Positions 15,704 through 45,194 of a stretch of DNA of 56,040 nt are shown here, in pieces. Position 1 is the stretch's first letter. The number at the start of each line of letters is the position of its first letter. The notes under the pieces were generated by a model. It was not told the origin of the DNA and made no database searches. It was given only the letters and a program-made list of their open reading frames with translations. The stretch is from the IMG/VR virus record IMGVR_UViG_3300042294_002897, positions 1-56,040 of that record; one strand, 5' to 3'. The stretch comes from a virus. Both the position numbers and the translations under genes were made by a program.

Positions 15704-15707
15704 AATT

Positions 15708-16763: not shown

Positions 16764-16767
16764 TTTA

Positions 16768-17040
16768 TTATAATTTTTGAATAAATTTATTGAATAACAT
16801 AGTGTTCCACGCTAATCTGAAAGAAACACTTAAATCGTGAGAATTTTTACTTGCGACCATTTTTTCATCAATGGGTTGCATTTCCGAAAAAATCACATCT
16901 GTTAAAGTTTTTACTATTTCAAATTTAATTACGGAAATATGTTGATTTTCACCTGTTCCCGAAAAGTCCGGTCTATCTATAAAATTATCAATTGCGTTGA
17001 TATTAAGATAGTATTGTTCTCCTAAAACGTCTAGCATCAT
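16768..17040 (-). CDS. Small hypothetical protein in glycosylation operon
   Basis: A 90-residue protein (MMLDVLGEQYYLNINAIDNF...) with no recognised domain. ATG 17040 overlaps the TGA of the HAD-like gene (ATGA), so it is translationally coupled. Position between a HAD-like gene and a GT-B gene suggests a role tied to the glycan pathway, but nothing in the sequence specifies it. Confidence 0.6.
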   Translation of the reverse strand: MMLDVLGEQYYLNINAIDNFIDRPDFSGTGENQHISVIKFEIVKTLTDVIFSEMQPIDEKMVASKNSHDLSVSFRLAWNTMLFNKFIQKL

Positions 17041-18291: not shown

Positions 18292-18293
18292 CT

Positions 18294-19034
18294 TTATAAT
18301 TTAGGATAAATTAAGTCAAATCTACCAGATGGAAGCCCACTAGTTTCATGTGAATTACACTGATAATGAGTTAGACAATTATTAATAAACTCTGGTGATA
18401 TTTTTTTGAGTAAAAGATAAAAACTAATAGATCTTTCGTGCATATGTCCACAATATTGACTAACAACAATATCATCTATAAATTGGGAAAACCAATTGAC
18501 ATAATCAATAAGAATTTGGGTTTTCCAAGTAGAATTACTTGAACTACTCCATAAAGAAAAAGGAGGTTGTGTATTGATTAAATCAATTATATCGATTTGG
18601 GTTTTGTTTTTTATTGATTTTACCAATTCGTCAACCAAATATTCTAGTTTAACAAAAACAGGGTCTTCAATTATCATTGGTACATAACCAATAAAATCTG
18701 ATTTTTGATAAATTTTTTCACTCAGTTTTTCTGTGAATTGATTTGTTAAATTGATGTCATACTCAAATAAATTTACATATTCGGTTTCAATTAATCCATA
18801 TTTTGTTAAAATATACCAACCAGTAAATGATGTTAATTTTGGATATTTTTCTAGATTTCCTAAAAAATTCTTACAAATTATAACATTATCTATGTGCTCT
18901 ATTTTTGAACAATCATTTAAACTTAAAAATACATACTTAATATTCTCAATATTAGAAAATCTTTTTTTTTCTATACAATCTAGAATTATGTCCTGTGTAT
19001 GTGCGAAAATAAATGTAGTTATTTTATCTTTCAT
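18294..19034 (-). CDS. Probable glycosyltransferase
   Basis: A 246-residue protein: ITTFIFAHTQDIILDCIEKK at the N-terminus, a middle YGLIETEYVNLFEYDINL with a DxD-like acidic site, and a C-terminal part with His/Trp-rich WSSSSNSTWKTQILIDYVNW. ATG 19034 forms an ATGA overlap with the upstream gene and is preferred over a Met seven codons earlier. Length and context support a GT-A enzyme; the family is not identified. Confidence 0.62.
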   Translation of the reverse strand: MKDKITTFIFAHTQDIILDCIEKKRFSNIENIKYVFLSLNDCSKIEHIDNVIICKNFLGNLEKYPKLTSFTGWYILTKYGLIETEYVNLFEYDINLTNQFTEKLSEKIYQKSDFIGYVPMIIEDPVFVKLEYLVDELVKSIKNKTQIDIIDLINTQPPFSLWSSSSNSTWKTQILIDYVNWFSQFIDDIVVSQYCGHMHERSISFYLLLKKISPEFINNCLTHYQCNSHETSGLPSGRFDLIYPKL

Positions 19035-20908
19035 AGATCTAATAAATTTTTCCATTTTTCTATTATTTGTAAATTACTAAGATCTGAAACTTCATTATTT
19101 GTTTCAGAATTACCAAAAAAATCAGTTCCAGTAATAAAACACTCATCTTTTACTAAACAAGCGACCTCACCTTTTGAACTATGATAAACTCTACCTATAG
19201 AGTCGTACATTTCTTGTTTGTCTTCTGTATACCCAATGTATTCAACCAACCCGTTATTTAAATATTTTGAAATTTGATTATCAAAATAATTTTTATCACC
19301 TATAGCTCCAAAAATTAATATTTTTTCACAATTATCAGAAATTGCTCTTTCTATCGAGATATGAGTTTGTTTTCTTTCTTCGATAGAACCTATTATTCCT
19401 GCGATCATTTTTTTATTTGTTTTTTCTTTAAAAAATAAATTTGGTTTTAGGTTTGGAATTATACTGTAATCTCCATTATATTCTTGATGAAATTCTTTAT
19501 GTTGATCATGTAAAAATACACAAGTGTCAAAAAAATTATTAATATTTTTAAACGACCACCACCATTTTTCGTGACAAGAAAATACGACCTTATGTACATT
19601 TGGTCTTTCAGGTAAGTTTATAAAATGACAAATTAATCTATCGGATTGTTCTAATTTTAAATTTAGAAGTAAATCTGATTTACATTTATCAAGGTGATAA
19701 CTATGTGGACCATAAAATGTACAATCGTATCCATAACGATTAAGTTCATTTGTTAAATTTACAAAAGCGACCGTAGACCCACCATAAGAAGAATAATTAG
19801 ATAATATTTTTATTTTTTTATTATCTGTTGATGTATAATCTAAAATACTAAGTATATCACTAGTATTAATAACTTTTAAATCATTATTTATTTTCAATTT
19901 AGGTAAATTTGAAAATGCTACTTTGATAAAATTATATTCTTTATTATTATCATGTATAATCAAGTCATAGTTAGAGTTATTTGTACTATACAAAACTTTA
20001 TCAACACTTCGAACGGTATTTCCATTAATTGTTAAACTCCAATTACCGTCACCAATTTTTGTATCAGGTATTTGATTTTTTTCAATTAATTTTATGTTTT
20101 TATTTTTTACCTTAATTTTCTTGAAATTACTGATTACATGTATTTCCCAATTTTTAGGAAGTTCGGCTAATTCAAGTATCAAATCAGAAATTAAATTAAA
20201 ATTATTTTCAATTGAAACCAAAATTTTTAACAAATCATTTGAACTTTTTTTTATTTTGGTAGGTAAATACTCACTAAATTTTTTTGAAAATAAAATTCTA
20301 TTCTCTTCCCATTTATCATTAGTCATTCCAATAGACTTGTGAGTTATTCTAACATCAAAAATTACACCTATCTTTACTCCTTTTATAAAATTTTCAAAGG
20401 AAAAATTTATATCGTAAAAATGAAATCCAGAAACATTTTCATCAAAATTGGATATTATTCTTTTTTTATGAATACAAATAAAAAGACCATCTACAACTAT
20501 AACGTTTTTTATTTTATCTTCTAAATTTTTACTATATTTTGATTCCCATTTTTTACCTTCATTTTCGTGATTTACTATCCCACACATCGTAGTTCTATCT
20601 TCCCACCACATTCCACTCTTGGGCATATAAGTTGTTCCAGCAACACCTAAAATACCATAATGTGATTTATTAAAATGTTTTAATATTTTGTTTGCCCAAT
20701 TTTTTGTGTCAAAATAAATGTCATCATGACATATAATAACAATATCATTAGTTGCTTCGTTTAATATTTCGTTATAGACTTCAGTTAATGAACGACCAGT
20801 ATCGTTTATTTTTTCTATAATTTCTAACTTAGGTAATCCTGAAGTTTGACGTAGCAAATTTTGGAATACCTGAGAAGATTTTCTTGTACTATATCCTACT
20901 GTTATCAT
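19031..20908 (-). CDS. Two-domain glycosyltransferase (GT-A plus GT-B fusion)
   Basis: A 625-residue fusion. Residues 1-230 form a GT2-like domain: MITVGYSTRKSSQVFQNLLR, EILNEATNDIVIICHDDIYF (metal site), GILGVAGTTYMPKSGMWW. Residues ~355-590 form a GT-B-like domain: KIKILSNYSSYGGSTVAFVN, CHFINLPERPNVHKVVFSCH, AGIIGSIEERKQTHISIERA and KGEVACLVKDECF. Such fusions are typical of glycan assembly, adding two sugars in sequence. It is the longest gene of this cluster and is followed by an ATGA-coupled transferase. Confidence 0.8.
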   Translation of the reverse strand: MITVGYSTRKSSQVFQNLLRQTSGLPKLEIIEKINDTGRSLTEVYNEILNEATNDIVIICHDDIYFDTKNWANKILKHFNKSHYGILGVAGTTYMPKSGMWWEDRTTMCGIVNHENEGKKWESKYSKNLEDKIKNVIVVDGLFICIHKKRIISNFDENVSGFHFYDINFSFENFIKGVKIGVIFDVRITHKSIGMTNDKWEENRILFSKKFSEYLPTKIKKSSNDLLKILVSIENNFNLISDLILELAELPKNWEIHVISNFKKIKVKNKNIKLIEKNQIPDTKIGDGNWSLTINGNTVRSVDKVLYSTNNSNYDLIIHDNNKEYNFIKVAFSNLPKLKINNDLKVINTSDILSILDYTSTDNKKIKILSNYSSYGGSTVAFVNLTNELNRYGYDCTFYGPHSYHLDKCKSDLLLNLKLEQSDRLICHFINLPERPNVHKVVFSCHEKWWWSFKNINNFFDTCVFLHDQHKEFHQEYNGDYSIIPNLKPNLFFKEKTNKKMIAGIIGSIEERKQTHISIERAISDNCEKILIFGAIGDKNYFDNQISKYLNNGLVEYIGYTEDKQEMYDSIGRVYHSSKGEVACLVKDECFITGTDFFGNSETNNEVSDLSNLQIIEKWKNLLDL

Positions 20909-26132: not shown

Positions 26133-28316
26133 ATGGCTTATCAAAACATTAACCAATATGTCAAATCAAAGTTGTATTTACAACCTGTATTACAAATTTC
26201 GGATATTTCTTTAGCCAATGATGAACGACAATACAATGAAGAAGTTGTTTTTTCACCATTAATTATCGGAGCTAATGATGGTGATGTATTACCGGTAAAA
26301 ATTGATTTAAATTTTTCAGGATCATCTCAGAAAATAGATTTACCATTTGGTGAGTATAAAAGGGAAAACGTAATAGTTTCTGAAAATTATTATAATCCTT
26401 ACGATTATATTTTGGATTGTTTTTCAGGAAAAAGTATTTGTGATATAGGTTTAACAGGTACTGACAATGGATTGGTTACAGGAATGACAGGTCAAAGTAT
26501 CTCTTATACCGAAGGATTATTGGATGACAGCGAAAAGTTCGATCGATTAAAATTTGATAGAAGATTAAAATTATTTCAAGTAACCGGGTATACGAACCAT
26601 CCAAATCATAGATTTTCGGGAATTACCGCAGAAACTGCCTATGAAATGGTATCTTATACCGCTAATACAGTTGGAGTTTACAATGAACTTTACGGAGGAT
26701 TTTATCAAGGTTTTTATGAACTTTTCGGGTATAATTATAAAATACTACCTGAAAGATATACCAAAGGTTGGACAGTTGAAATGACACTGAAACCAAGGAT
26801 ATACAATCAGTATTCAACACCATCAGGTAAAACAACTCTGAACCAATATTATCCAAACAATTCGGGTATTTTTTTCTACTTAGGAACTCGTGCGGAAAAC
26901 AAATATTGGCACTTCGCACAAGGAAAAAATCCTACAGATCCTGATTATGATCGGGTAACTAAAAGATTAAAAGATTTAACAACTTGTGATTGTACAACAC
27001 TAAATCCAGGATACTCAACTAACTCCACATCTCATTTTGATTTGAGCGTTTCAGGTGCGACAATTCAAGTTGGTCAGGATTTGTTATGGACTTCAGGTGA
27101 TACTTGTGTTGTATATCATAACGAACTTGCTTTTTTAACAGGTAATGTTATTGGGTATTCGGCCGAAACAAGTTCTTTGCAATTTGTTACAACCTATCGT
27201 GTTGGAAAAGGAGATTTTCAATATTGGATTGTTGATAAATTAAATTTTTTAGAATACAATAATTCCGATTGTTATTTTGTGTATCCACCTACAGGGATTA
27301 CTGATTATCACTACACGGAAAGTCCTTGTTGTCCTGATGAACCACAAGTCCCTGTAGCAGAACAAGATGCTGCCTATAACGGGATGTCTAACGCACTTGC
27401 CATAAGATTTAGTGGTGATCCAACCAATCCAAAAATATGCATTAGGACCTTGACTATGACAGGTGATTGTATAACGAGTGGTAGTTGTGAAACCACAGGT
27501 TTTGAATCTCAAACAGGATACTCAATTAACAATTATTGTACTACAAAAAGAATATACGATGAATGTAGTGGAACCACATATTCATTAGATGAACATTGGG
27601 TTTTAATCGACGTGGTTTTTGAAAGAAATACGGCTTTGGATGAATGTGATTTAGTTTACCTTGGTGGTTTAGGTGTGATTTCTAATTTAGTATTCACCGC
27701 ATCTACAGATAGTAATTCAGTTTCATTAATTTCACCACCAATAACACATTACCAATTAAATCCTGAAAAAGAAGAGTTGGTACAACTCAACAATGAGTGG
27801 TTATTGGAAAAAGGTTTCCGTAAAGGAAAATTTAAAATTTTTGTAAATGGTAAATTATTCGAAACCTTCGATAATGTCGAAGAAATTATTCCGAGAGGAC
27901 TTTATGGTCACAAAGAAACTCAAGTAGGTGTACCATTTAATATTTCATGGGGTGGAGGTACACAAGGACTCCACGAGAATTTAATTTTTAGTGCTATTCC
28001 TACCAATGATTTGAATTATTATATTCAGGATCCTGAATTATTCCCACCAAAAATCTTAAGTGGAACAAGTTTAAGTGCGTTAACTACAAATATTTTAATT
28101 GAACAGAATTTTGCTGGGACATTCGATGGAGGAATATCTTCTTTTTCGATGTATGCTAAACCTTTGACTATACCTGAAATACAACATAATGCAAGAATAT
28201 TGAGACCAAAATACGATTTTTTGAATACATATTGTTTTACATGTCTTGATTCAACTCCGACGGCAACTCCAATTAATACCCCAATACCAACTCAAACACA
28301 ACCACTTCCTACCTAA
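26133..28316 (+). CDS. Virion protein with ConA/LamG-like fold, fibre-associated
   Basis: A 727-residue beta-rich protein. Residues ~210-270 (TKGWTVEMTLKPRIYN, SGIFFYLGTRAENKYWHFA) and ~490-690 (HWVLIDVVFERN, KGKFKIFVNGKLFETFDNVE, GGISSFSMYAKPLTIPEIQH) fit a split concanavalin/laminin-G jelly roll, with a Cys-rich insertion (~280-490). The C-terminus ends in a short TPTATPINTPIPTQTQ tail, the same Thr/Pro style as the next gene. It probably belongs to a tail fibre or decoration complex and may bind a carbohydrate. It starts a plus-strand unit with the mucin-like gene and glycosyltransferases. Confidence 0.72.
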   Translation: MAYQNINQYVKSKLYLQPVLQISDISLANDERQYNEEVVFSPLIIGANDGDVLPVKIDLNFSGSSQKIDLPFGEYKRENVIVSENYYNPYDYILDCFSGKSICDIGLTGTDNGLVTGMTGQSISYTEGLLDDSEKFDRLKFDRRLKLFQVTGYTNHPNHRFSGITAETAYEMVSYTANTVGVYNELYGGFYQGFYELFGYNYKILPERYTKGWTVEMTLKPRIYNQYSTPSGKTTLNQYYPNNSGIFFYLGTRAENKYWHFAQGKNPTDPDYDRVTKRLKDLTTCDCTTLNPGYSTNSTSHFDLSVSGATIQVGQDLLWTSGDTCVVYHNELAFLTGNVIGYSAETSSLQFVTTYRVGKGDFQYWIVDKLNFLEYNNSDCYFVYPPTGITDYHYTESPCCPDEPQVPVAEQDAAYNGMSNALAIRFSGDPTNPKICIRTLTMTGDCITSGSCETTGFESQTGYSINNYCTTKRIYDECSGTTYSLDEHWVLIDVVFERNTALDECDLVYLGGLGVISNLVFTASTDSNSVSLISPPITHYQLNPEKEELVQLNNEWLLEKGFRKGKFKIFVNGKLFETFDNVEEIIPRGLYGHKETQVGVPFNISWGGGTQGLHENLIFSAIPTNDLNYYIQDPELFPPKILSGTSLSALTTNILIEQNFAGTFDGGISSFSMYAKPLTIPEIQHNARILRPKYDFLNTYCFTCLDSTPTATPINTPIPTQTQPLPT

Positions 28317-28366: not shown

Positions 28367-29458
28367 ATGTGCAAATGTTGGAACGCTAAACTATTAAATA
28401 TATCTCAAAATATAATCACAGTTACATACATGAGATGTGGTGATACATTGATAGTTGATGAGATGTGGCTTTATCCTGGCATAGTTAAAAATGTTTGGTA
28501 TGTTAACATATTATCTACCCCAAGTGAAAATCTTCAAATCTTGGACCCCATATGTTTTCCACAAGAATCATTAACACCAACACCTAGTATACCACCTACA
28601 TTAACTCCCACTCCTTCTATAACCGCAACTATAACTAAAACACCAACATTAACACCAACAATCACACGAACACCTATACCAACTCCAAGTATAACCCCCA
28701 CATACACTCAAACACCTACAATAACACCTACAATAACGCAAACTTTAACACCAACCAAAACGCCAAGGGCTACCAACTCACCGACACCATCTATAACAAT
28801 TACTATAACAATGACTAAAACACAAACACTTACACCATCCATATCTCCCACAAACACACAAACATCAACAGTTACTCAAACACCTCCAGCAAGTGTAACA
28901 CCAACGAAAACACAAACACCAACAATTACGCAGACTCCTACTAGAACGTCATTCCCAACTAACACTCCTACTCAAACTCTAACAAATACACCAACAAAAA
29001 CACAAACACCAACAATTACGCAGACTCTTACAAGAACATCATTCCCAACTAACACTCCTACTCAAACTCTAACAAATACACCAACAAAAACACAAACACC
29101 AACAATTACGCAGACTCTTACAAGAACATCATTCCCAACTAACACTCCTACTAGAACTCAAACTCCAACAAATACACAAACAAATACGCAAACACCAACT
29201 CAGACACAAGTGTCTTGTTATTGTTACACTTATAACACACCAGATGCTGGTAGTGAAGATGTCCTTAATTATACTGGATGTACAGTTGAAGAAAATAGTA
29301 TTGCTATAGCAGGCGACCCATCAGGTACATTCTGTGCAATAAAAGATAATATAGTTTTAATTTATTCAGGTCAAACTTATGGTCCACCTACTTGGGATGG
29401 ATTTATTATTGAAGGATCAAATTGTATACCAAGTGGTGGGACTTGGAATTGTCCTTAA
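28367..29458 (+). CDS. Thr/Pro-rich mucin-like protein with N-anchor and Cys domain
   Basis: A 363-residue protein in three parts. Residues 1-60 form a small domain (NIITVTYMRCGDTLIVDEMW, then VKNVWYVN) shared with the start of the giant protein at 49867. Residues ~68-285 are almost only Thr, Pro, Ser, Gln, Asn, Lys and Ile in TPT-type repeats, including a 30-residue exact repeat. Residues ~285-363 form a Cys module (VSCYCYTYN, GTFCAIKDN, CIPSGGTWNCP) that also occurs in the giant protein. No signal peptide. It is likely a virion surface protein, and the dense Thr tract is an obvious O-glycan acceptor for the GT60-like enzyme encoded next. Confidence 0.75.
   Translation: MCKCWNAKLLNISQNIITVTYMRCGDTLIVDEMWLYPGIVKNVWYVNILSTPSENLQILDPICFPQESLTPTPSIPPTLTPTPSITATITKTPTLTPTITRTPIPTPSITPTYTQTPTITPTITQTLTPTKTPRATNSPTPSITITITMTKTQTLTPSISPTNTQTSTVTQTPPASVTPTKTQTPTITQTPTRTSFPTNTPTQTLTNTPTKTQTPTITQTLTRTSFPTNTPTQTLTNTPTKTQTPTITQTLTRTSFPTNTPTRTQTPTNTQTNTQTPTQTQVSCYCYTYNTPDAGSEDVLNYTGCTVEENSIAIAGDPSGTFCAIKDNIVLIYSGQTYGPPTWDGFIIEGSNCIPSGGTWNCP
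28901..29170 (+). repeat. 90-base tandem repeat, nearly three units
   Basis: Units starting at 28901, 28991 and 29081 encode [12 protein letters not shown], then an LTRTSFPTNTPT stretch and QTLTN. Units two and three are almost identical at DNA level; the third diverges after about 70 bases. This indicates recent duplication within the Thr/Pro tract. Confidence 0.92.
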
Positions 29459-29476
29459 TTTTAGTAATTTGTATTT

Positions 29477-29501
29477 TTTTGATTTTAAAAACAAATCAAA
29501 A
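29477..29501. other. A/T hairpin after mucin-like gene
   Basis: TTTTGATTT / AAATCAAAA (9 bp) with a 7-base loop lies in the 90-base gap between the mucin-like gene and the GT60-like gene. No clear U-tract follows, so termination is doubtful; the rest of the gap shows nothing else. Confidence 0.35.
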
Positions 29502-29548
29502 CCATTTACAAATAAAAACATGTAAGTATTTTTTTTTAAAAAATTAAT

Positions 29549-30814
29549 ATGAAAATATTTGTACAAATAGCGTCTTATAGAGATCCTGAATTAATTAAAA
29601 CAATAAAAAGTTGTATAGACAATGCAGATAAGCCAAATAATTTAGTTTTTGGTGTTGCACGTCAATTTCACCCAGAAGATAAATTTGACGATTTATCTGA
29701 ATATATGTTGGATGATAGATTTAGAATATTAAATATTCCTTATACCGAATCTAAAGGAGTTTGTTGGGCTAGAAATCAAGTACAACAATTGTATAAAAAA
29801 GAAGAATATACACTTCAAATAGATTCACATATGAGGTTTGCCAAAGGTTGGGACACTGAAATGATTTCTATGATTAAACAACTTCAAAAAAAGGGATACA
29901 AAAAACCATTATTAACCGGTTACGTCTCATCATTTGATCCTGATAGAGATCCTGCTGCTCGTGTTCAAGAACCTTGGAGAATGGTTTTCGATAGATTTAT
30001 TCCTGAAGGTGCCGTGTTTTTTTTACCTGAAACAATACCAAATTGGCAAGAATTAACTGAACCAATTCCTTCAAGATTTTATTCAGCACACTATGCCTTT
30101 ACACTAGGTAAATTTAGTAAAGAAGTTCAACACAATCCTGAATATTATTTTCATGGTGAAGAAATATCTATAGCTGCAAGAGCTTATACTTGGGGATATG
30201 ATTTATTTCATCCACACAAAGTTTTAATTTGGCATGAATATACTAGAAAAGGAAGAACCAAACAATGGGATGATGATGGAAATTGGGTACAAAAAAATAA
30301 CGTATCTCATGATATAAATAGAAAATTATTTGGAATGGATAATATTAAACAGGAAGGGCATGACGGTCCATATGGTTTTGGTAAAATAAGATCTCTAAAA
30401 GATTATGAAAAATATTCAGGATTACTCTTTGAAAAAAGAGCAATACAACAATACACTTTAGATAAAAATTATCCTCCAAATCCGTATAATTACGAAACTG
30501 AAGAAGATTGGAAAAATGACTTTGCTTTAGTGTTCAAACATTGTATAGATATTGGGTATCAACAAGTACCAGAAAAGGATTACAATTTTTGGGTAGTGGC
30601 GTTTCATGATGAAAATGATGAGACAATTTACAGAAAAGATGCTGATACACATGAAATTGCACGTATGATGAACGACCCAGATGGGTATTGTAAAGTTTGG
30701 AGAGAATTCCAAACATCTCATAAACCAAAATACTGGGTTGTATGGCCTCACTCAGAATCTAAAGGGTGGTGTGATAGAATAACTGGACAGTTAGATTATT
30801 CAACCGTAAGTTAA
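29549..30814 (+). CDS. GT60-like polypeptide alpha-GlcNAc transferase
   Basis: A 421-residue protein matching the GlcNAc (GT60) family, related to GT27 mucin-type transferases. Visible signatures: MKIFVQIASYRDPELIKTIK and CIDNADKPNNLVFGVARQ at the start, ESKGVCWARNQ (67-77), LQIDSHMRFAKGWD with the DxH metal motif D92-S93-H94, YYFHGEEISIAARAYTWGYD and HPHKVLIWHEY. Known members add alpha-GlcNAc to hydroxyproline of Skp1 (Dictyostelium) or to Thr of mucins (Trypanosoma cruzi). The last ~90 residues (NFWVVAFHDENDETIYRKDA...) are an extra domain. It follows a Thr/Pro-rich protein gene, so it probably starts O-glycan chains on it. Confidence 0.82.
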   Translation: MKIFVQIASYRDPELIKTIKSCIDNADKPNNLVFGVARQFHPEDKFDDLSEYMLDDRFRILNIPYTESKGVCWARNQVQQLYKKEEYTLQIDSHMRFAKGWDTEMISMIKQLQKKGYKKPLLTGYVSSFDPDRDPAARVQEPWRMVFDRFIPEGAVFFLPETIPNWQELTEPIPSRFYSAHYAFTLGKFSKEVQHNPEYYFHGEEISIAARAYTWGYDLFHPHKVLIWHEYTRKGRTKQWDDDGNWVQKNNVSHDINRKLFGMDNIKQEGHDGPYGFGKIRSLKDYEKYSGLLFEKRAIQQYTLDKNYPPNPYNYETEEDWKNDFALVFKHCIDIGYQQVPEKDYNFWVVAFHDENDETIYRKDADTHEIARMMNDPDGYCKVWREFQTSHKPKYWVVWPHSESKGWCDRITGQLDYSTVS

Positions 30815-30829
30815 TTATTTTAATAATTA

Positions 30830-32185
30830 GTGATAAAATTAATAAGTTTCGATTTAGACGGAGTTCTTGTAGAAACAAAACATATTCATTATTTAGCCCT
30901 TAATAATGCTCTAGGGTCTTATGCAATTTCATGGGAAGAACATTTATCAATTTATGATGGTTTAAAAACCAAACAAAAGTTAGAATTACTACATAAGAAT
31001 AAAGGACTTCCTGAAAGTCTTTTTAATGAAATTTGGGTTAATAAACAAAAATTAACTTTAGAATATCTTTCTGATATCAAACCAAATTATAATATTTGTG
31101 AATGTTTTAAATTACTACAAGAAAAAGGTTACAAAATTGCAGTATGTTCTAACAGTATACGTAAAACCGTATATTCGATTTTATGTAAATTAGATGTTAT
31201 TGATTATGTAGATGTTATTAAATCAAATGAAGATGTAAAAAATAGTAAACCTCATCCTGAAATGTATTGGAATGTAATGTCTGAACTTGGTATAAAACCA
31301 CACGAAAATTTAATTTTAGAAGACTCACCATATGGACTTATTGCCGCAAATTCAAGTGGTTCTCATGTTTTAAGAATTAAATCACCATCAGACATTAATA
31401 TAAATTATATTTTAAATGAGATTAATAAGATTAATAATGTAAATTTTAAAATAATGAAATGGAAAAACCAAAATATGAATGTGTTGATTCCTATGGCTGG
31501 TGCGGGATCTAGATTTGAAAAAGCTGGGTATACTTTTCCAAAACCACTAATTGATGTAAAAGGCAAACCTATGATTGAACTAGTAGTTAGAAATTTGAAT
31601 ATAGAAGCAAATTTCATTTACATAGTTCAAAAAAGTCATAGAGAAAAATATAATTTAGACGTATTACTCAATTTAATTACACCAAACTGTACAATTATAG
31701 AAGTTAACGGAATTACAGAAGGAGCTGCTTGTACAGCCCTCCTTGCTAAAGAATATATTAATAATGACTCACCTTTATTTTTTGCAAACTCAGACCAATT
31801 TGTAGAATGGGACTCTAGTGAATTTATGTATAAGATGCAAGAAACAGACTGTGATGGAGGAATAGTAACTTTTGAGTCCACTCACCCAAAGTGGTCTTTT
31901 GCTAAAGTAAATGAATTGGGATTAGTAACTGAAGTTGCGGAAAAAAATCCAATATCAAATATTGCTACTGTTGGTTACTATTATTGGAAATATGGATCTG
32001 ATTTTGTAAAATATGCTGAAAAAATGATAGATAAAAATATCAGGGTAAACAATGAATTTTATGTCTGTCCTGTTTTTAATCAAGCAATAGAGGATAATAA
32101 ACAAATCAGAATATTTAACGTACAAGGTATGTGGGGGTTAGGTACCCCAGAAGATTTAAATTATTATTTAGAAAATTTCAAATGA
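30830..32185 (+). CDS. HAD phosphatase fused to sugar nucleotidyltransferase
   Basis: A 451-residue fusion. Residues 1-195: HAD phosphatase of the phosphoglucomutase-like type (LISFDLDGVLVETKHIHYLA, motif I DLD; KIAVCSNSIRKTVY; NSKPHPEMYW; LILEDSPYGLIAA). Residues ~215-451: nucleotidyltransferase (NVLIPMAGAGSRFEKAGYTF, PKPLIDVKGKPMIE), which makes an activated NDP-sugar from a sugar phosphate. The pair could make a nucleotide-sugar donor for the neighbouring transferases. The start codon is GTG, needed to include the HAD motif. It overlaps the next gene by ATGA. Confidence 0.85.
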   Translation: MIKLISFDLDGVLVETKHIHYLALNNALGSYAISWEEHLSIYDGLKTKQKLELLHKNKGLPESLFNEIWVNKQKLTLEYLSDIKPNYNICECFKLLQEKGYKIAVCSNSIRKTVYSILCKLDVIDYVDVIKSNEDVKNSKPHPEMYWNVMSELGIKPHENLILEDSPYGLIAANSSGSHVLRIKSPSDININYILNEINKINNVNFKIMKWKNQNMNVLIPMAGAGSRFEKAGYTFPKPLIDVKGKPMIELVVRNLNIEANFIYIVQKSHREKYNLDVLLNLITPNCTIIEVNGITEGAACTALLAKEYINNDSPLFFANSDQFVEWDSSEFMYKMQETDCDGGIVTFESTHPKWSFAKVNELGLVTEVAEKNPISNIATVGYYYWKYGSDFVKYAEKMIDKNIRVNNEFYVCPVFNQAIEDNKQIRIFNVQGMWGLGTPEDLNYYLENFK

Positions 32186-32625
32186 TTTTAATTTCACATC
32201 GAGGTAATATCAATGGTCCAAATAAAATAAGAGAAAACTCTCCACACTATATCACAGAAACATTTACTTTGGGATATGAAGTTGAAGTTGATGTTTGGTT
32301 TGTTGACGGTAATTTTTATTTGGGACATGACGCACCTCAGTATCAAATTGAGATAAATTGGCTAAGTGATAGAACGCATAAGTTATGGGTTCATTGTAAA
32401 AATATAGAGGCTATATCGTTTTTTAATAAAAATAGTCATGACTTGAATTATTTTTGGCACGAAAAGGATACAGTTACATTAACATCTAAAGGATACCTTT
32501 GGGTATATCCTGGAAAACAACCAATTAAAAATAGTATTGCGGTATTACCAGAAATATACAATGATCCCATAGAATTATGTTATGGAATATGCAGTGATTA
32601 TCCTCATAAATTTTTAAAAAAATAA
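32182..32625 (+). CDS. GDPD-like (glycerophosphodiesterase family) protein
   Basis: A 147-residue short member of the PLC-like phosphodiesterase fold: MILISHRGNINGPNKIRENS, then GYEVEVDVWFVDGNFYLGHD, with the HR...E.D and GHD residues of the GDPD catalytic site. Versions with HRGNxxGPN occur in surface-polysaccharide loci and phages. It may act on a phosphodiester-linked glycan component. ATG 32182 forms an ATGA overlap with the upstream fusion gene; a longer in-frame start would lie inside that gene. Confidence 0.78.
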   Translation: MILISHRGNINGPNKIRENSPHYITETFTLGYEVEVDVWFVDGNFYLGHDAPQYQIEINWLSDRTHKLWVHCKNIEAISFFNKNSHDLNYFWHEKDTVTLTSKGYLWVYPGKQPIKNSIAVLPEIYNDPIELCYGICSDYPHKFLKK

Positions 32626-32626
32626 A

Positions 32627-33499
32627 ATGGAACTAAATAACTTTTTGACTTTTATAATGTATACAAATCAAAATTACATCCCAATTGCTAAAATTGCATT
32701 GGATGGTTTTTTTGAAAACTGCGGAGATCAACAAATTAAAAAATACTTGGTCAGTAATGCTTTTAATATAGAAACTAAACATTTAGTAGAAAATTTTGAT
32801 ATAGAATTGTTTGATTCAAATGTTCCATTTTCAGATGGTGGATACCATTATGGTAAAACAATTTTGAATTTATTAGATAATATTGAGACTGACTATGTTA
32901 TGATTTTGTTAGACGATTATGTTGTTACTAAACCAATAAAATGGGATAATATTAGAAATTTAATAAAAGTTATGTCTGATCAAAAAATTGATTATTTTTC
33001 GTTTATGAGTTATAGTTATGATTGGTCAGAACTAGATATAAATTACACAGACTATGGTTTAGAAAATCAAAAATTGATGATTTTTGATAATAGTTATTTT
33101 TATATGTATTCAGTCCAACCATGTATTTGGAAAAGAGAATCTTTAAAAGAGTTTTTACAAAAAAATCAAAATTTGGCATTACATAATATGGACACATCAA
33201 ATATTTTAAATAAAAAAGGAATGTCACGAGGTTCTAATAACGGTGAATATTATCAAGATAAAGAATTTTATGACTATAATTTTAAAAATGTTTGTTTCAA
33301 AAAACATAGTTTGAATACCAATTACGCTTTTGATGAACACAATGGAGAAGATGATTATTTATTTTTTTTATATTCAGAAATAATTAGATGGGGTAAGTTT
33401 AATCTAAACACACATCAAAATAACAAAACTTTTATTAATAAATTATTTAAAAAATATAACATATCTAAAGAAAGTTCATACTATAACAGATTTTTATGA
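32627..33499 (+). CDS. Probable glycosyltransferase
   Basis: A 290-residue protein: LTFIMYTNQNYIPIAKIALD at the N-terminus, then HYGKTILNLLDNIETDYVMI and LLDDYVVTKPI, a DxD-like acidic site at about residues 105-106. The later YSVQPCIWKRESLKEFL fits acceptor-side residues of GT-A enzymes. It overlaps the next gene by ATGA. Family not named; context is a glycosyltransferase cluster. Confidence 0.7.
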   Translation: MELNNFLTFIMYTNQNYIPIAKIALDGFFENCGDQQIKKYLVSNAFNIETKHLVENFDIELFDSNVPFSDGGYHYGKTILNLLDNIETDYVMILLDDYVVTKPIKWDNIRNLIKVMSDQKIDYFSFMSYSYDWSELDINYTDYGLENQKLMIFDNSYFYMYSVQPCIWKRESLKEFLQKNQNLALHNMDTSNILNKKGMSRGSNNGEYYQDKEFYDYNFKNVCFKKHSLNTNYAFDEHNGEDDYLFFLYSEIIRWGKFNLNTHQNNKTFINKLFKKYNISKESSYYNRFL

Positions 33500-34134
33500 A
33501 AAAAATAATATCATTTTGTTTGTATGGGGATGATCCGAAATATCTGAACGGAATGATTTGCAACTTAGAGTTAGCAAAAATAATATACCCTAATTGGATA
33601 TGTAGAATTTATTGTTCAACGTTATTGAGTTCAAATTTTATATCATATTACAAAAACTATGAAAATTGTGAATTAGTTTTCAAAGAAGAAATAGAGGATT
33701 ACCCGTCTATGACTTGGAGATTTTTAGCAATAGATGACCCCGATGTTGATGTAATGTTAAGTAGGGATAGTGATTCAAGATTATCTTATCGTGAAAAAAA
33801 ATGTGTTGATATTTTTATGGAATCTGATTACCTATTTCATGACATAAGAGACAATGTAAATCATTCTGATGTAATGGGTGGATTATGGGGTATGAAGAAA
33901 AATGAAAGATTAATCATGTCAGACGAATTACAAAAATGGAATCATGGTAACTATTATGGATCTGATCAATTTTTTATAAGAAAAATTTCTCAAGATTTTT
34001 TTGAAAATTCACATTTAACACATTGTTCTCACTTTATTAAAAATTTTCCTCTTACTGACCCTTCTAATTACTGTGTCGGTGAAGTTTTTCCTGGAGATAA
34101 CTATAATAAACCTATAAATCATATTTGGTACTAG
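33496..34134 (+). CDS. Glycosyltransferase, paralogue of the 17620 gene
   Basis: A 212-residue protein: KKIISFCLYGDDPKYLNGMI, LAKIIYPNWICRIYCS, TWRFLAIDDPDVDVMLSRDS, DSRLSYREKKC and GGLWGMKKNER. It shares all main blocks with the minus-strand gene at 17620, showing that the two clusters exchanged or duplicated a transferase. The DSDSR acidic motif is the likely metal and donor site. Confidence 0.78.
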   Translation: MKKIISFCLYGDDPKYLNGMICNLELAKIIYPNWICRIYCSTLLSSNFISYYKNYENCELVFKEEIEDYPSMTWRFLAIDDPDVDVMLSRDSDSRLSYREKKCVDIFMESDYLFHDIRDNVNHSDVMGGLWGMKKNERLIMSDELQKWNHGNYYGSDQFFIRKISQDFFENSHLTHCSHFIKNFPLTDPSNYCVGEVFPGDNYNKPINHIWY

Positions 34135-35055
34135 ATGAAAATTTTAATACAACATAATTGGGGAACTGGATTGGGGGATTTTTATTGTGCTGCTACTGAA
34201 TATACAAATTTTGTTAATTTTTTTAAAGAAAAAGGATTTAAAACAGAATTAATTTTAAGTTTTAATCCCCCAATCGAAAATAAATTTATAGGATTTACTG
34301 AATTTGAAAAAATTTTTGATATTAATTCTTTCAAAGTTTTTGATGATATATCAGTAAGAAGATATACTATAAAAGATCAAACTATTGGAGATTTAAAGTA
34401 TATTGCAACACAATACGGGCCTGGACCAGGACAACATTGGTGGGATATCTATTTAGATGAAAAACCAATGGACTACCCAATGACTCCAAATTATAATACC
34501 GATAGAGTTATAGAGATTGCAGGGCAAGGTCAAATAAATACGTCAAAACCAAATATTCTCCCTAAATTTAATCACGAAGTTTACACCAAATGTGATAAAT
34601 TTTTTACAAAAATTCCTGAAGATTGTCAATTTTTACATATTAGATATGTAGATTGGCACAGACGAGAAACTCAAGAATTAAAAAATATTGTTAGAGATCT
34701 CAAAACTTTTATAATAAATAAAGGTGGTAATTTCCATGTTGGTACAAATAATCAGTATATTTTAGAAAGTTTAGCAAAAATCGATAATGCCCATACGTAT
34801 GAATATTCAAATATAAACATATTACCTAACGATCATACATATTATTGGTTTAATAAACACATCTCGGATGAGATATTATTAGATAGATTATATGATAATT
34901 TGGCAGAAATGGTAAGTTTGACAAGACCTAAAAAATTTTATCAATTATCAATTTTAGGATGGCACTCTAATTTTTTATACTACGGACTCATTAATAGATC
35001 GACTGAATTTGAATTCGAAAGAATACATTTAAATTATCCAATTGACAAAGAATGA
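34135..35055 (+). CDS. Putative GT-B glycosyltransferase, fucosyltransferase-like
   Basis: A 306-residue protein. MKILIQHNWGTGLGDFYCAA at the start is a typical GT-B N-terminal loop. CQFLHIRYVDWHRRETQELK in the middle resembles the HxRxxD-type motif of fucosyltransferase-related enzymes, and NFHVGTNNQYI follows as in that fold. The family is uncertain. The ATG starts immediately after the upstream stop (TAGATG). Confidence 0.6.
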   Translation: MKILIQHNWGTGLGDFYCAATEYTNFVNFFKEKGFKTELILSFNPPIENKFIGFTEFEKIFDINSFKVFDDISVRRYTIKDQTIGDLKYIATQYGPGPGQHWWDIYLDEKPMDYPMTPNYNTDRVIEIAGQGQINTSKPNILPKFNHEVYTKCDKFFTKIPEDCQFLHIRYVDWHRRETQELKNIVRDLKTFIINKGGNFHVGTNNQYILESLAKIDNAHTYEYSNINILPNDHTYYWFNKHISDEILLDRLYDNLAEMVSLTRPKKFYQLSILGWHSNFLYYGLINRSTEFEFERIHLNYPIDKE

Positions 35056-35915
35056 AAGTACAAATTACGTTTGAAAACCCGCACACCGATTGGGCGACTT
35101 TACATGTGTATAACAGATATTACAACTGGTTTGTAACTAATCATACTACAATTGAAACTATTTATCAAAATAGTGGTAGAATGGTAAATAGGAATGTGTG
35201 TGGGCCTTATTCACCACATATTATGACTGTCAGAAATTTAGAAAATTCAAAATATTTTTTAATTTCATATTGGGACAATGCCGCTTCTCTCATGACTTCT
35301 TATCATGATTGGGATACGGAAAATTGTCTTGGTTTAATAACATCTTCTGGAGTATATGGTAATTTAGAACACATACCTTTCTCATATACTTGTTATGGTG
35401 TTAATTTTGAGAACTTATCTTCACAAAAAACGTTAAAAAAAATAGAAGAAAAACCAAACAATGAATTAAAATTCAGAGGAACTTTATATGGTGAAAGACT
35501 TTCTATGTCAAAAGCACACCCCGAAATTTTTTTGGAACATAGGGGATTTGATCCAGACTTTTATATTCAAGAACTATACGATTCAAAAATATGTTTAAGT
35601 CTTAATGGCGCTGGTGAAATTTGTAATCGTGATATGGAAATTTTATCAGTCGGATCTGTATTACTTAGACCTGAATTATCTCAAACTTTTCATGACCCTC
35701 TTATACCAAATTTTCATTATTTATCAGTTCCAAAAGTAACTAATCCCGAGGAACAAATTAATCTTTTGATTGAAAAGTATGAAGAAAATATACATAATTT
35801 AGAATTTTTAAATTATATTAGTACTAATGGTTACAATTGGTTCAAAAAAAATGGTACAATAGATTCTAATGTAGATATTTTAAAAAAACTAATAGATTTA
35901 AACAAATTATCTTAA
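35052..35915 (+). CDS. Glycosyltransferase, GT90/exostosin-like C-terminal half
   Basis: A 287-residue protein. N-terminal strands (MKVQITFENPHTDWATLHVY...), then KFRGTLYGERLSMSKAHPE and FYIQELYDSKICLSLNGAGE, then ICNRDMEILSVGSVLLRPEL and PNFHYLSV. This order (short plan of a cell-surface transferase, the Gly-Arg, Asp-Met-Glu and final HY) resembles GT90/exostosin-type donors. It overlaps the upstream gene by 4 bases (ATGA). Confidence 0.62.
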   Translation: MKVQITFENPHTDWATLHVYNRYYNWFVTNHTTIETIYQNSGRMVNRNVCGPYSPHIMTVRNLENSKYFLISYWDNAASLMTSYHDWDTENCLGLITSSGVYGNLEHIPFSYTCYGVNFENLSSQKTLKKIEEKPNNELKFRGTLYGERLSMSKAHPEIFLEHRGFDPDFYIQELYDSKICLSLNGAGEICNRDMEILSVGSVLLRPELSQTFHDPLIPNFHYLSVPKVTNPEEQINLLIEKYEENIHNLEFLNYISTNGYNWFKKNGTIDSNVDILKKLIDLNKLS

Positions 35916-35917
35916 TT

Positions 35918-37423
35918 ATGCTTTCTAAAAAAATTCAAAAAATTTTATCAGATTTTAAAGTAGATAAAAAATATTGGAAATATTCTAATTTAACAAACGA
36001 AGAACAAGAGCTCCGTAGGTCAAAACCTACTCCATATTTAAAATGTACTATCGAAATAGCTAAAGAACTAAATTTAAAAAATGTAGTGGAATTGGGTTCG
36101 TCAACTTATGCTGTGACTCAAGGATGCTTAGATTATTTCTATAACTTTAATAACTCATTTTTATCACCACAATGTTGTATTGATGGTCACAGTACCTTTT
36201 TTTTTACAAAGGAAGATTTTAATGTTTATAGCGTTGATATTGATGAAAACAGAGTAAATAGTGTTTTATGGGGTTATAATAATTTAAACATTAGTGTTCC
36301 TGATAATTTGAAGTTGTACATTCCTATGGATGCTTTTGAGTTTGTCGAAAATTTTAATCAAACTATTGATCTGTTATATCTAGATGCTTGGGAAATTGGA
36401 AGTCCAAATTGTGCTGAAAATTATTTAAATTTTTTTATAAAAATACAAAATAAGTTAGCACCAACTCATTTAATTTTAATAAATGATACAGATTTTGTTC
36501 ATACAATTCGAGGTAAAGATCATTTACTAACTCCATACTTGATTGATAATGGTTATAAATTACTATTCAATGGTAGACAGACTTTGTTTTTAAAAGAACA
36601 AGAAAATAATTTCCAAGAAAGTTCAATTATAAAAATTGATACTGAAGAGTCTCCTAAAATATTAATTAATGATAGGTTAGTCATTTTGACAATGTCTACT
36701 ATTCCAAATAGATTAAATTCTATTCATACAAATGGTGGGTTAAAACCAGTTTTAGATGTTTTATTAAATTTATCATATAGTAACTATGAATTACATTTAA
36801 ACATACCCTATTATAATGTTAAATCTGGTCAGGAATACATAATACCGAGTTGGTTAGAAAATTATGATAATAATAAATTGAAAATTTTTAGAACCGATGA
36901 TTATGGTTCTATAACTAAACTTATACCAACAATTGATAGAATTTCAGATCCCGAAACAATTATAATAACCGTCGATGATGATTTAAATTATATGGATGGA
37001 TTTATAGAGTATCATTTAATTAAAAGAAATGAATATTCTGATTGTGCAATAGGTTTTGCTGGCATGGGTGCTATAGATGGTACATGTCATTTTTGTACTA
37101 CTATGAATAAAGATGTGAGAGTTAAAATTTTAGAAGGATATAAAACTATTTCGTATAAAAGATCTTTCTTTGATACTGATTTTAAAGATTTTGCAATTGG
37201 AAATTGGAATGATGATATGATTATTTCTGCATATTTGGGAAAAAATAATATAAAAAAATATGTTATATCATATAGTGGTGATACTGATTTTAACCCTAGA
37301 GTAGAATCTTTTCCAATACTAGGTCATATTGCAAATGAATCTGGCGGATGTTCTTGGTTTCGTACGGAATCTGTCCCTGACAACCATAACATTTATTATA
37401 AACTTGGGTATTTGGAGCGTTAA
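35918..37423 (+). CDS. Methyltransferase-like plus glycosyltransferase fusion
   Basis: A 501-residue fusion. Residues ~1-215 are a class I SAM-methyltransferase-like domain: NLKNVVELGSSTYAVTQGC, a Cys/His segment FLSPQCCIDGHSTFFF, NVYSVDIDENRVN and DLLYLDAWEIGSPN. Residues ~235-501 are a GT-A-type domain: RLVILTMSTIPNRLNSIHTN and TIIITVDDDLNYMDGFIEY (acidic site). The first domain is a clear duplicate of that in the next gene. Methylation and sugar addition in one chain suggests capping or decoration of a glycan. Confidence 0.75.
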   Translation: MLSKKIQKILSDFKVDKKYWKYSNLTNEEQELRRSKPTPYLKCTIEIAKELNLKNVVELGSSTYAVTQGCLDYFYNFNNSFLSPQCCIDGHSTFFFTKEDFNVYSVDIDENRVNSVLWGYNNLNISVPDNLKLYIPMDAFEFVENFNQTIDLLYLDAWEIGSPNCAENYLNFFIKIQNKLAPTHLILINDTDFVHTIRGKDHLLTPYLIDNGYKLLFNGRQTLFLKEQENNFQESSIIKIDTEESPKILINDRLVILTMSTIPNRLNSIHTNGGLKPVLDVLLNLSYSNYELHLNIPYYNVKSGQEYIIPSWLENYDNNKLKIFRTDDYGSITKLIPTIDRISDPETIIITVDDDLNYMDGFIEYHLIKRNEYSDCAIGFAGMGAIDGTCHFCTTMNKDVRVKILEGYKTISYKRSFFDTDFKDFAIGNWNDDMIISAYLGKNNIKKYVISYSGDTDFNPRVESFPILGHIANESGGCSWFRTESVPDNHNIYYKLGYLER

Positions 37424-37433
37424 AACAATTTTT

Positions 37434-39842
37434 ATGAATGAAATTTACAAAATTTTAAATGATTTTAAAATAGACAAAAAATTTTGGAATCACGATGATT
37501 TATCATCAAATGACTACGATTTTTTAAGATCGAAACCTGCTCCATATTTAAAAAAAACAATTGAGATTGCTAAATTATTAAAATTAAAAACCCTAGTTGA
37601 AATTGGTTCAACAAGAATATCAGCTACTCAGAAATGTATAGATTATTTTTACAATCAAAATGATCCATTTTTATCACCACCATGTTGTGGGGATGGTCAT
37701 AGTACTTTTTTTTGGACTGATGCGGGGTTTGATGTTCACACGGTAGATATCGATGAAAAGTGTATTGATGGTGTTAATTGGTGTTATAATAACTTGAATT
37801 TAGAAAAACCAACAAATCTTCATTTACATATTCCAAAAGATGGGTTAGAATTTTTACGTGAATTTTCTGAAACTATTGACATTTTATTTCTAGATGGATG
37901 GGATAAAGGAGTACCAAATTATGCTGAAAAACATCTAGAATGTTATGAAATTGCTCGTGATAAACTTTCTAGTGTGCATTTAATTCTTATTGATGACACA
38001 GACTATAACACACTAGATGGTGGTAAAGACAAGTTACTTACACCTAGATTAATTGAGGATGGTTATATCCCACTTTTTAATGGAAGACAATCTTTATTCT
38101 ATAAAGACTCATCAAATAAGATGTCTTTAAATCAAGAAATTTTAAATAAAAACAAAGAATTACAAATTATGCAAAGCAATAATAAAACAACTTTAGTAAC
38201 AGGTCTCTGGAATATTGGTAGATCTGATTTGTCGGTTGGGTGGTCTCGAGGGTACGAACATTATTTAAATAAATTTGAACAACTCTTAAAATCTAATTAT
38301 AATTTTATTATATTTGGGGATCGTGAGTTAGAAGAATTTGTAATGGCGAGAAGAAGTCCTGAAAACACTCAATTTATTGTTAGAGAACTTTCTTGGTTTA
38401 AAAACGAATTTTATGATATCATACAAAAAATAAGAACCAATCCAAATTGGTATAATCAAGTTGGGTGGTTAACAGATTCGACTCAGGCTAAATTAGATAT
38501 GTACAATCCTTTAGTGATGAGTAAAGTTTTTTTGTTACACGATGCAAAAATACTAGATAAATTTAATTCAAATTATTTATTTTGGATAGATGCTGGGTTG
38601 ACAAATACCGTACATAGTGGGTATTTTACACATGACAATGTTATCGAAAATTTGGGTGAACATAACTTTATAAGTTTTGTTTCTTTTCCTTACAAAGCTG
38701 AATCTGAAATTCATGGGTTTAATTATGAACATATGTGTTCTATGGTTGGTGAAAAAATAGATAAAGTTTGTAGAGGAGGTTTTTTTGGTGGACCTAAAGA
38801 GTTAATAAGTGAGTTTAATTCTCAGTATTATAGTCTAATGAAAGAAACTTTGAATTCTGGGTTTATGGGAACTGAAGAATCTTTGTTTACAATACTTTTA
38901 TACAAATACTGTGAGACATATAGATATTTCGAAATTGAATCTAACGGATTATTGTCAAAGTTTTTTGAAGATGTAAAAAATAATAATCAAAAATTATTAT
39001 CGATGTGCCCCAAAGTATCAAAATCATCGAAAGAATTGAACGTTGGGTTGTACGTAATTGGATTTAATAGTCCGAAACAATTTGAGACTCTCATTGAATC
39101 GATGATACAGTATGATTGTCAGTTTATAGATGGTCCAAAAAAGTTTTTATTAGACAATTCGAGCGATGAAAGTACTTTTCAGAGGTACAGTGAATTGTGT
39201 GAGGAGTTTGATTTTGTTCATATTAAAAAAGATAATCTTGGTATTTGTGGTGGAAGACAATTTATTGCGGAACACGCCGATTTAAATAATTTTGACTATT
39301 ATTTCTTTTTTGAAGACGATATGTTTTTTTATACCAAAAAAGGTGAAGTTTGTAGAAATGGTTTTAACAGATATGTCAACAACTTTTATAATAACGTTTT
39401 GCAAATTATTCAAAAACACGACTTTGATTTTCTTAAATTTAATTATTCAGAATTTTTCGGAGATAATGGCGTACAATGGTCCTGGTACAATGTACCTCAA
39501 ACCATAAGAGAAAAATTCTTTCCGAATAATACTCAATTACCAAAACACGGAATAGACCAAAACGCACCAAGAACAAATTATGAAAACATTAGATCTCACA
39601 ATGGAATACCATATGTGACAGGTGAAGTTTATTATTCTAATTGGCCACAAGTAGTTTCCAAAGAAGGAAATAAAAAAATGTTTTTAGATACAAAATGGGC
39701 ACATCCCTACGAACAAACTTGGATGAGTCATATTTTTCAAGAAACTAAAGTTGGAAAGATAAAACCCGCATTATTATTAATGACACCTACGGAACACAAT
39801 CGTTTTGAACACTATTCTGGAAATTTAAGAAAAGAATCTTAA
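37434..39842 (+). CDS. Three-domain protein: methyltransferase-like, HtrL/YibB-like, GT2-like
   Basis: An 802-residue protein. Residues 1-210 duplicate the upstream MTase-like domain (LKTLVEIGSTRISATQKC, FLSPPCCGDGHSTFFW, DVHTVDIDEKC). Residues ~250-520 match HtrL/YibB-type proteins (TTLVTGLWNIGRSDLSVGWS, FWIDAGLTNTVHSGYF, GGFFGGPKELI). Residues ~535-802 form a GT2-like domain (LNVGLYVIGFNSPKQFETLI, GRQFIAEHADLNN, YYFFFEDDMFFYT). ATG 37434 is chosen because it matches the start of the paralogue; a longer in-frame start would overlap the upstream gene. Likely assembles a branch of the virion glycan. Confidence 0.75.
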   Translation: MNEIYKILNDFKIDKKFWNHDDLSSNDYDFLRSKPAPYLKKTIEIAKLLKLKTLVEIGSTRISATQKCIDYFYNQNDPFLSPPCCGDGHSTFFWTDAGFDVHTVDIDEKCIDGVNWCYNNLNLEKPTNLHLHIPKDGLEFLREFSETIDILFLDGWDKGVPNYAEKHLECYEIARDKLSSVHLILIDDTDYNTLDGGKDKLLTPRLIEDGYIPLFNGRQSLFYKDSSNKMSLNQEILNKNKELQIMQSNNKTTLVTGLWNIGRSDLSVGWSRGYEHYLNKFEQLLKSNYNFIIFGDRELEEFVMARRSPENTQFIVRELSWFKNEFYDIIQKIRTNPNWYNQVGWLTDSTQAKLDMYNPLVMSKVFLLHDAKILDKFNSNYLFWIDAGLTNTVHSGYFTHDNVIENLGEHNFISFVSFPYKAESEIHGFNYEHMCSMVGEKIDKVCRGGFFGGPKELISEFNSQYYSLMKETLNSGFMGTEESLFTILLYKYCETYRYFEIESNGLLSKFFEDVKNNNQKLLSMCPKVSKSSKELNVGLYVIGFNSPKQFETLIESMIQYDCQFIDGPKKFLLDNSSDESTFQRYSELCEEFDFVHIKKDNLGICGGRQFIAEHADLNNFDYYFFFEDDMFFYTKKGEVCRNGFNRYVNNFYNNVLQIIQKHDFDFLKFNYSEFFGDNGVQWSWYNVPQTIREKFFPNNTQLPKHGIDQNAPRTNYENIRSHNGIPYVTGEVYYSNWPQVVSKEGNKKMFLDTKWAHPYEQTWMSHIFQETKVGKIKPALLLMTPTEHNRFEHYSGNLRKES

Positions 39843-45159: not shown

Positions 45160-45194
45160 ACTCACCAAGACTTTAGTGTCTCCTATAAGTATTT

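Follow-up and report, generated by a model that had tools for sequence, protein, structure and literature searches.

The stretch of DNA analyzed here, referred to as the window, is the 56-kb IMG/VR virus record IMGVR_UViG_3300042294_002897 (positions 1-56,040), a genome fragment in which a gene for a Thr/Pro-rich (TP-rich) stalk-like protein is followed by a gene for a predicted GT60-type polypeptide O-N-acetylhexosamine (HexNAc) transferase and a run of further sugar genes. The two open reading frames (ORFs), singled out by an earlier sequence-only reading as a candidate phage mucin system, both sit where that reading placed them. The elements of the pair are the following.

28367-29458, plus strand: TP-rich stalk protein of 363 amino acids, the proposed acceptor (translation, composition)
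28373-28567, plus strand: its N-terminal domain of ~65 residues (residues 3-67), a proposed anchor (domain hits, all in TP-rich ORFs)
28571-29209, plus strand: its Thr/Pro tract, residues 69-281 (composition)
29549-30814, plus strand: predicted GT60-type polypeptide O-HexNAc transferase of 421 amino acids, first gene of the cassette (PF11397, AlphaFold2, Foldseek)
29822-29830, plus strand: DSH (DxH) metal/donor motif, residues 92-94 of the enzyme, unchanged in 48 relatives

The product of 29549-30814 matches the PF11397 profile ("GlcNAc") with an E value of 2.5e-64 and 218 bits (cut-off 21), the match covering residues 50-294 together with an N-terminal stretch, and matches phrog_24687 ("glycosyltransferase") with an E value of 3e-167. 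In an alignment with 48 relatives that are 42-87% identical to the window protein, D92-S93-H94, G203, E205, R211, G216-Y217-D218 and H229-E-Y-T-R are invariant and F201-H202-G203-E204-E205 is near-invariant, bearing out the DxH motif and the FHGEE/GYD block on which the original assignment relied. D-x-H is also kept in 97 of 103 matching stretches from bacteria. Among the GT-A families the DxH variant is specific to GT27 and GT60; these two families fall together in a single clade and transfer sugars to Ser/Thr of polypeptides in a shared manner, GT60 being distributed in prokaryotes and protists only (PMC7185993). The mucin glycans of Trypanosoma cruzi begin with alpha-linked N-acetylglucosamine (GlcNAc) on Thr (PMC3769586); the enzyme adding it is assigned to GT60, and a further GT60 member, Gnt1, glycosylates hydroxyproline (PMC6939170).

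The AlphaFold2 model of the window enzyme, built from the 48-relative alignment, has a predicted local distance difference test (pLDDT) value of 90.7 and a predicted template modeling (pTM) value of 0.82. Structure prediction had been named as a check on the GT60 assignment, and it returns a GT27/GT60-like fold, with 242 significant Foldseek matches in the PDB, of which ranks 1-19 are all polypeptide N-acetylgalactosamine (ppGalNAc) transferases of family GT27. These also make up the majority of the 50 matches listed, the best being human GalNAc-T4 (E 1.3e-10). Searches of the PDB by sequence with the window enzyme, single and as a profile, found nothing, so no close relative has been solved. 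Because the PF11397 match, the DxH motif, the fold and the GT27/GT60 literature agree, the enzyme is by its sequence a member of GT60 with a predicted catalytic activity. It shares the PF11397 profile and the DxH motif with the T. cruzi polypeptide alpha-GlcNAc-transferase, which starts glycans on Thr-rich mucins, and with the Skp1 enzyme Gnt1 of Dictyostelium and Toxoplasma. It differs from these protist enzymes in being phage-encoded, in having no membrane segment, in lying inside a variable glycan cassette and in carrying an extra C-terminal β-rich domain, and its acceptor and donor are predicted only. With GT27 (animal mucin enzymes, TgGalNAc-T3) it shares the best PDB folds (E 1e-10 to 1e-8), the DxH motif and an expected retaining Ser/Thr transfer, whereas the sequence identity is 10-17% and the ricin-type lectin domain is a feature of GT27 that is not shown in the window enzyme.

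The Thr/Pro tract of the upstream protein is 213 residues long and makes up 59% of the 363 residues, in agreement with the earlier estimate of about 60%, and contains 28 TP dipeptides, with Thr accounting for 43% of its residues, Pro for 17% and Ser for 6%; the protein thereby has the long Thr/Ser/Pro-rich tract of a mucin-like acceptor. Two further genes in the window, not mentioned in the sequence-only reading, also encode TP-rich sequence.

26133-28316, plus strand: putative tail/fibre protein of 727 amino acids, family c1, with its C terminus entering a short TP tail STPTATPINTPIPTQTQPLPT (translation; homologues in loci L003 and L007)
49867-56040, plus strand: a second TP-rich protein of at least 2058 amino acids, running past the contig end, with the same anchor domain

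The 727-residue protein has no Pfam or PHROG match, and its L003 homologue carries a full TP stalk fused at the position of the C-terminal TP tail. Relatives were taken as the best 80 of 342 in IMG/VR (loci L003-L082). Scanning these and the window for the anchor domain gives 39 hits across 24 loci, in TP-rich ORFs only, and 31 of the 39 start no later than residue 50. The TP proteins have a modular build, in which the ~65-residue proposed anchor is followed by a TP stalk and then by variable domains, which in one relative include a C-terminal Laminin_G_3 domain. With the tracts masked, the upstream TP proteins still sort into eight families, and it is therefore the tract, not a single gene, that accompanies GT60. 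Over the phage loci the tracts contain 37.5% Thr and 17.9% Pro, and Thr is favored over Ser as the residue before Pro (T then P 40%, S then P 8%). A tblastn search of cultured phages with the 28367 protein and the 727-residue protein found nothing, which low-complexity filtering or divergence may explain.

The enzyme gene is followed on the same strand by the rest of the cassette.

30830-32185, plus strand: two-domain HAD phosphatase and sugar-1-phosphate nucleotidyltransferase, for donor supply (HAD_2, E 1.2e-29; NTP_transferase, E 5.1e-9)
32131-32625, plus strand: cassette gene of family c37 (phrog_34507, E 8e-34)
32627-33499, plus strand: cassette gene of family c52, which on inspection resembles GT-A (acidic CDD motif), without profile support
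33496-34134, plus strand: cassette gene of family c20, recurring in other cassettes
34135-35055, plus strand: cassette gene unique to the window phage among the compared loci
35052-35915, plus strand: cassette gene of family c44
35918-37423, plus strand: cassette gene, 501 amino acids, sharing phrog_24975 with the N terminus of the next gene
37434-39842, plus strand: c2, final cassette gene (HtrL_YibB, E 2e-14; AlphaFold2 and Foldseek)

The listed c2 ORF begins at a TTG at 37329, the ATG at 37434 being the likelier start. Its N-terminal domain resembles a class I methyltransferase by inspection and is followed by a tandem GT-A glycosyltransferase (38169-39839), predicted as two GT-A domains with LH3, LARGE1, COLGALT1 and chondroitin polymerase as best folds, all of which have tandem glycosyltransferase-type domains. 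In most loci the order is GT60 first, a variable run, and c2 (~556 residues) last, and 3' of c2 lies the gene that precedes DNA polymerase B. The interior genes match GT25, GT10, GT11, GT61, an FkbM methyltransferase, a PRK-type kinase and a class II aldolase across the phages. Grouped by family, they form 26 cassette arrangements. Loci L011 and L016 are 96.6% identical in GT60 and 98.5% in family c10, and L010 and L014 are 97.6% identical in GT60, 95.9% in c2 and 97.0% in the polymerase, yet in each pair the cassette interior is completely different. By analogy, fixed ends around a swapped interior are the pattern of bacterial serotype loci. Of the cassette proteins, 455 of 457 have no strongly hydrophobic membrane-like segment, which argues against a lipid-linked membrane-based pathway. 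The earlier count of more than ten further glycan genes is partly backed by profiles, with several cassette ORFs having no Pfam hit, and the donor-supply enzymes described with them come down mainly to the one HAD-nucleotidyltransferase protein at 30830. A second glycosyltransferase gene group lies on the opposite strand of the window (14187-20908, minus strand), with a GT2 at 14900-15703 and a Glyco_tranf_2_5 protein at 19031-20908. A separate 311-kb virus contig (L372:7593-9989) encodes a 799-residue protein in which a GT60-like domain is fused to apparent further glycosyltransferase domains.

The linkage of GT60 to TP proteins extends well beyond the window. A TP-rich ORF ends no more than 1500 nucleotides upstream of GT60 in 60 of 81 loci (window counted), and the gene immediately 5' of GT60 is a TP gene in most of 38 GT60 clusters. 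TP-rich ORFs occur anywhere in the fetched locus in 75 of 80 phage GT60 loci compared with 2 of 58 random viral loci, at densities of 8.8 and 0.39 per 100 kb, respectively (~22-fold). The glycosyltransferase genes are thus linked to structural genes, the GT60 cassette coming after fibre-like TP genes in most loci. A reverse test drew TP-bearing virus contigs by a DNA pattern for TPTxTPTxTPT with GT60 disregarded, together with 50 control contigs drawn with an arbitrary pattern. PF11397 was found in 11 of the first 50 TP-bearing contigs and in none of the 50 controls, a contrast that the greater average size of the TP contigs inflates somewhat. Four more strong GT60 matches came from the other 29 TP contigs. 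Weak GT60-like matches, in G136 and G140, were excluded from the GT60 count. c2 is present in 12 TP contigs, and all 12 also carry GT60.

Bacterial chromosomes carry distant GT60 members (31-69% identity), and in a sample of 80 bacterial loci, two of which (L301, L325) look phage-derived and not truly chromosomal, the same proximity is apparent. There are 13 TP-rich ORFs in the 76 kb within 500 nucleotides of GT60 compared with 16 in the 1115 kb farther away (binomial p 7e-9); some of these ORFs are antisense or of low quality, with L302 and L311 counted among the 16 far ORFs and L292, which has a run of N, among the 13 near ones. The adjacency occurs in Bacteroidota, Gemmatimonadota, Verrucomicrobiota, Acidobacteriota, Alpha- and Gammaproteobacteria and Mycobacteriaceae, so that the co-occurrence of TP proteins and GT60 in relatives, which the sequence-only reading had proposed to survey, is found and includes unrelated bacteria. 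In a Saprospiraceae bacterium and in Jiulongibacter sediminis the TP protein adjoins GT60 and c2 follows; in Mycobacteriaceae and Vicinamibacterales metagenome-assembled genomes (MAGs) a twin-arginine-like leader precedes the TP tract; and in one MAG the TP protein is flanked by two GT60 genes. Parts of contractile machines also appear among the acceptor candidates. In Azospirillum lipoferum a contractile tail-sheath protein containing a TP insert is encoded 1.9 kb away from GT60 (L328:13127-15175; Phage_sheath_1C, E 1.5e-10), a possible glycosylated injection-system sheath. Trinickia, Paraburkholderia and Cupriavidus (L321, L336, L347) have VgrG-like proteins that end in long (TP)n or (EPSTP)n tails and are encoded ~3.7 kb from GT60, a family match being obtained for the Paraburkholderia protein. 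A survey of 395 Bacteroidota genomes gave a strong GT60 match in the query genome only, and GT60 is therefore rare in this phylum. Two further architectures were seen directly 5' of GT60: in Sphingomonas MAGs (L324:6387-10001, L337:6388-9993), a protein of 1200 residues that combines a TP-rich stretch with an Rv2525c-like glycoside-hydrolase domain, and a PqqD-like domain fused to a Thr/Ala/Ser/Pro-rich tail in a Gemmatimonas MAG (L298:9155-9871).

Among the 50,697 phage records of INPHARED the enzyme is present in only three, XacN1, CM1 and RAS14, all of which carry c2 (38-40% identical). In XacN1, a Xanthomonas jumbo phage, ORF350 is TP-rich and ORF325 contains a TP stretch next to baseplate genes, and CM1 has a TP-rich protein ~9 kb from GT60. 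The XacN1 cassette (ORF334-ORF330) resembles that of the window in its GT60 enzyme, ORF334 (47% identical), and its c2 (40%) and differs in a carbamoyltransferase in the interior and in TP genes that are not adjacent to GT60. The portions consulted of the 2018 XacN1 paper describe at least two virion glycoproteins of unstated identity and suggest that two phage glycosyltransferases, ORF328 and ORF334, make them, and there the enzyme is not tied to TP acceptors (PMC5852040).

In view of a GT60-like enzyme placed after a TP fibre-like protein and of swappable sugar genes, the system probably builds a variable mucin-like particle coat, and we consider it likely that this locus encodes the phage's own machinery for mucin-like O-glycosylation of its virion stalk proteins. 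While the genes and their linkage, the fold and catalytic motifs of the enzyme, the swapping of cassettes and the lack of membrane-pathway features are established here, what follows on acceptor and donor, on the linkage of the sugar, on the order in which the enzymes act and on their purpose is inferred. Structural proteins would present long Thr/Pro stalks behind a common anchor domain, and would carry globular domains that vary. The GT60-type enzyme, acting in the host cytoplasm, would move an alpha-linked N-acetylhexosamine, either GlcNAc or GalNAc, from a uridine diphosphate (UDP) donor to many stalk Thr residues, and subsequent soluble glycosyltransferases would lengthen each core stepwise by single sugars, with c2 (tandem GT-A) contributing a conserved sugar or disaccharide and with methyl, carbamoyl or other decorations added in some phages. 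The product would be a sugar-coated stalk that is stiff and protease-resistant. With constant cassette ends and a swappable interior, phages would change their glycan as bacteria change serotype, and this switching probably alters adhesion, receptor choice or masking. A broader proposal, to which we give about an even chance, is that GT60 enzymes and TP stalk proteins together constitute a mucin-type O-glycosylation module of general occurrence in prokaryotes, present on contractile injection machines (fibres of phages, a tail-sheath protein, VgrG tips) and on exported TP proteins, and that in large phages it is serotype-like, a fixed initiating enzyme and a tandem transferase flanking swappable sugar genes to give variable mucin coats.

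The enzymes may instead modify other virion proteins such as the capsid or tail tube, the TP genes being mere neighbors in the fibre region. Mycobacteriophage tail proteins are said to be glycosylated too in the work of Freeman et al. (2023). In PMC11256854, which cites that work, mycobacteriophage enzymes are reported to glycosylate capsid proteins, resembling the present proposal in the use of phage enzymes on virion proteins and differing in the target, which is not a TP stalk; together with the unstated identity of the XacN1 glycoproteins in the portions consulted, this leaves some room for such targets. That TP tracts and not one gene family adjoin GT60 in unrelated bacteria, including a sheath with a TP insert, that the T. 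cruzi enzyme acts on Thr-rich mucins (PMC3769586) and that polypeptide Ser/Thr transfer is common to GT60 and GT27 (PMC7185993) make this explanation rather improbable. A Skp1-type chemistry, in which the acceptor is a tract hydroxyproline made by prolyl 4-hydroxylase, is suggested by the action of Gnt1 (PMC6939170) and by 2-oxoglutarate oxygenases, which a small number of GT60 contigs (G103, G118-G120) carry, as do both of the bacterial genomes examined. A prolyl 4-hydroxylase partner (PF13640) was not found in 23 of 29 GT60 records tested, which include 315-317-kb phage contigs, the window genome itself being a fragment. This and a Thr content twice that of Pro in the tracts favor Thr as the likely acceptor residue, and hydroxyproline is very unlikely.

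Modification of phage DNA to give hypermodified bases would fit the weak match between the c2 ORF and phrog_842, a family of phage DNA glucosyltransferases (E 1.6e-5), and that of an L043 homologue to a TET-associated glycosyltransferase (E 0.04). The GT60 fold and motifs are those of a polypeptide transferase, the cassette lies behind fibre genes and its swapping resembles that of a serotype locus, and a thymidylate-synthase-type enzyme is missing in 12 of 17 GT60 phage records; no Tet/JBP protein was found in these 17 either, a weak point since controls gave no match. DNA modification by the cassette is accordingly unlikely, and we give it only a minimal probability. Glycosyltransferases of temperate phages often alter the host surface, and this speaks for a cassette that changes the O-antigen or capsule and excludes other phages. 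Nearly all cassette proteins are without membrane segments, leaving no sign of a flippase, a polymerase or a membrane protein of GtrA type, and with an initiating enzyme of the polypeptide type and a cassette tied to TP proteins this role, too, seems scarcely credible.

Glycosylation of the virion stalks, the preferred explanation, is itself weighed down by several observations. The Foldseek template modeling scores of the enzyme are moderate (about 0.5), and the PDB yielded no structure of a GT60 member. No TP gene lies directly upstream in 20 of 78 GT60 loci, although nearly all hold one elsewhere; in XacN1 relatives the TP genes lie several kb from GT60, in only 7 of 17 loci; and most phage loci represent one lineage and are hence not independent. 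About 80% of TP contigs have no GT60, many of them being fragments, and among the 17 contigs of at least 90 kb a strong GT60 match is present in 10 and absent in 7, indicating that TP tracts do not require GT60. Overall the sequence-only reading, of a phage building O-glycans on its own mucin-like fibres, is supported in the sense of being consistent with every available test, not demonstrated.

Outside the cassette, the window is a fragment of a T4-like phage with a major capsid protein Gp23 at 4816-6678 (PF07068, E 6e-72); at 60-710 there is a weak match to a T4-type portal. A gene at 44470-45168 (minus strand) encodes a phage iron/manganese superoxide dismutase (PF02777, E 8e-42). Hint-like and LAGLIDADG matches interrupt the SNF2 match (residues 146-747) of the SNF2-type helicase at 45195-48053 (minus strand), which probably contains an intein with a homing endonuclease.

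Bacterial cellulases and cellulosomal scaffoldins have O-glycosylated Pro/Thr linkers between globular binding domains on exported proteins. These differ in being cellular secreted enzymes, and we know of no GT60 cassette linked to their glycosylation genes. Literature searches on PF11397 with glycosyltransferase found no paper, and those on Thr/Pro-rich phage glycosylation found nothing relevant. Phage-encoded virion glycosylation as such is already known, being reported for mycobacteriophages, and virion glycoproteins have been described in XacN1, so the earlier statement that no such system is described calls for a weaker wording. Not found described, and apparently new, are the pairing of a GT60-type initiator with acceptors in TP stalks, the recurrence of this pairing among bacteria that are unrelated and on contractile machines, and the cassette with its switchable interior. 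The analysis names a specific enzyme-acceptor pair, and the cultured XacN1, CM1 and RAS14 are phages in which the idea can be checked. If correct, it would offer a possible explanation for the TP-rich linkers of large-phage proteins and would link protein O-glycosylation to bacterial contractile injection systems. Phages would then encode for themselves a glycan coat on the stalks used for adhesion, one that can be switched and that is produced by a prokaryotic relative of the enzymes initiating mucin glycans.

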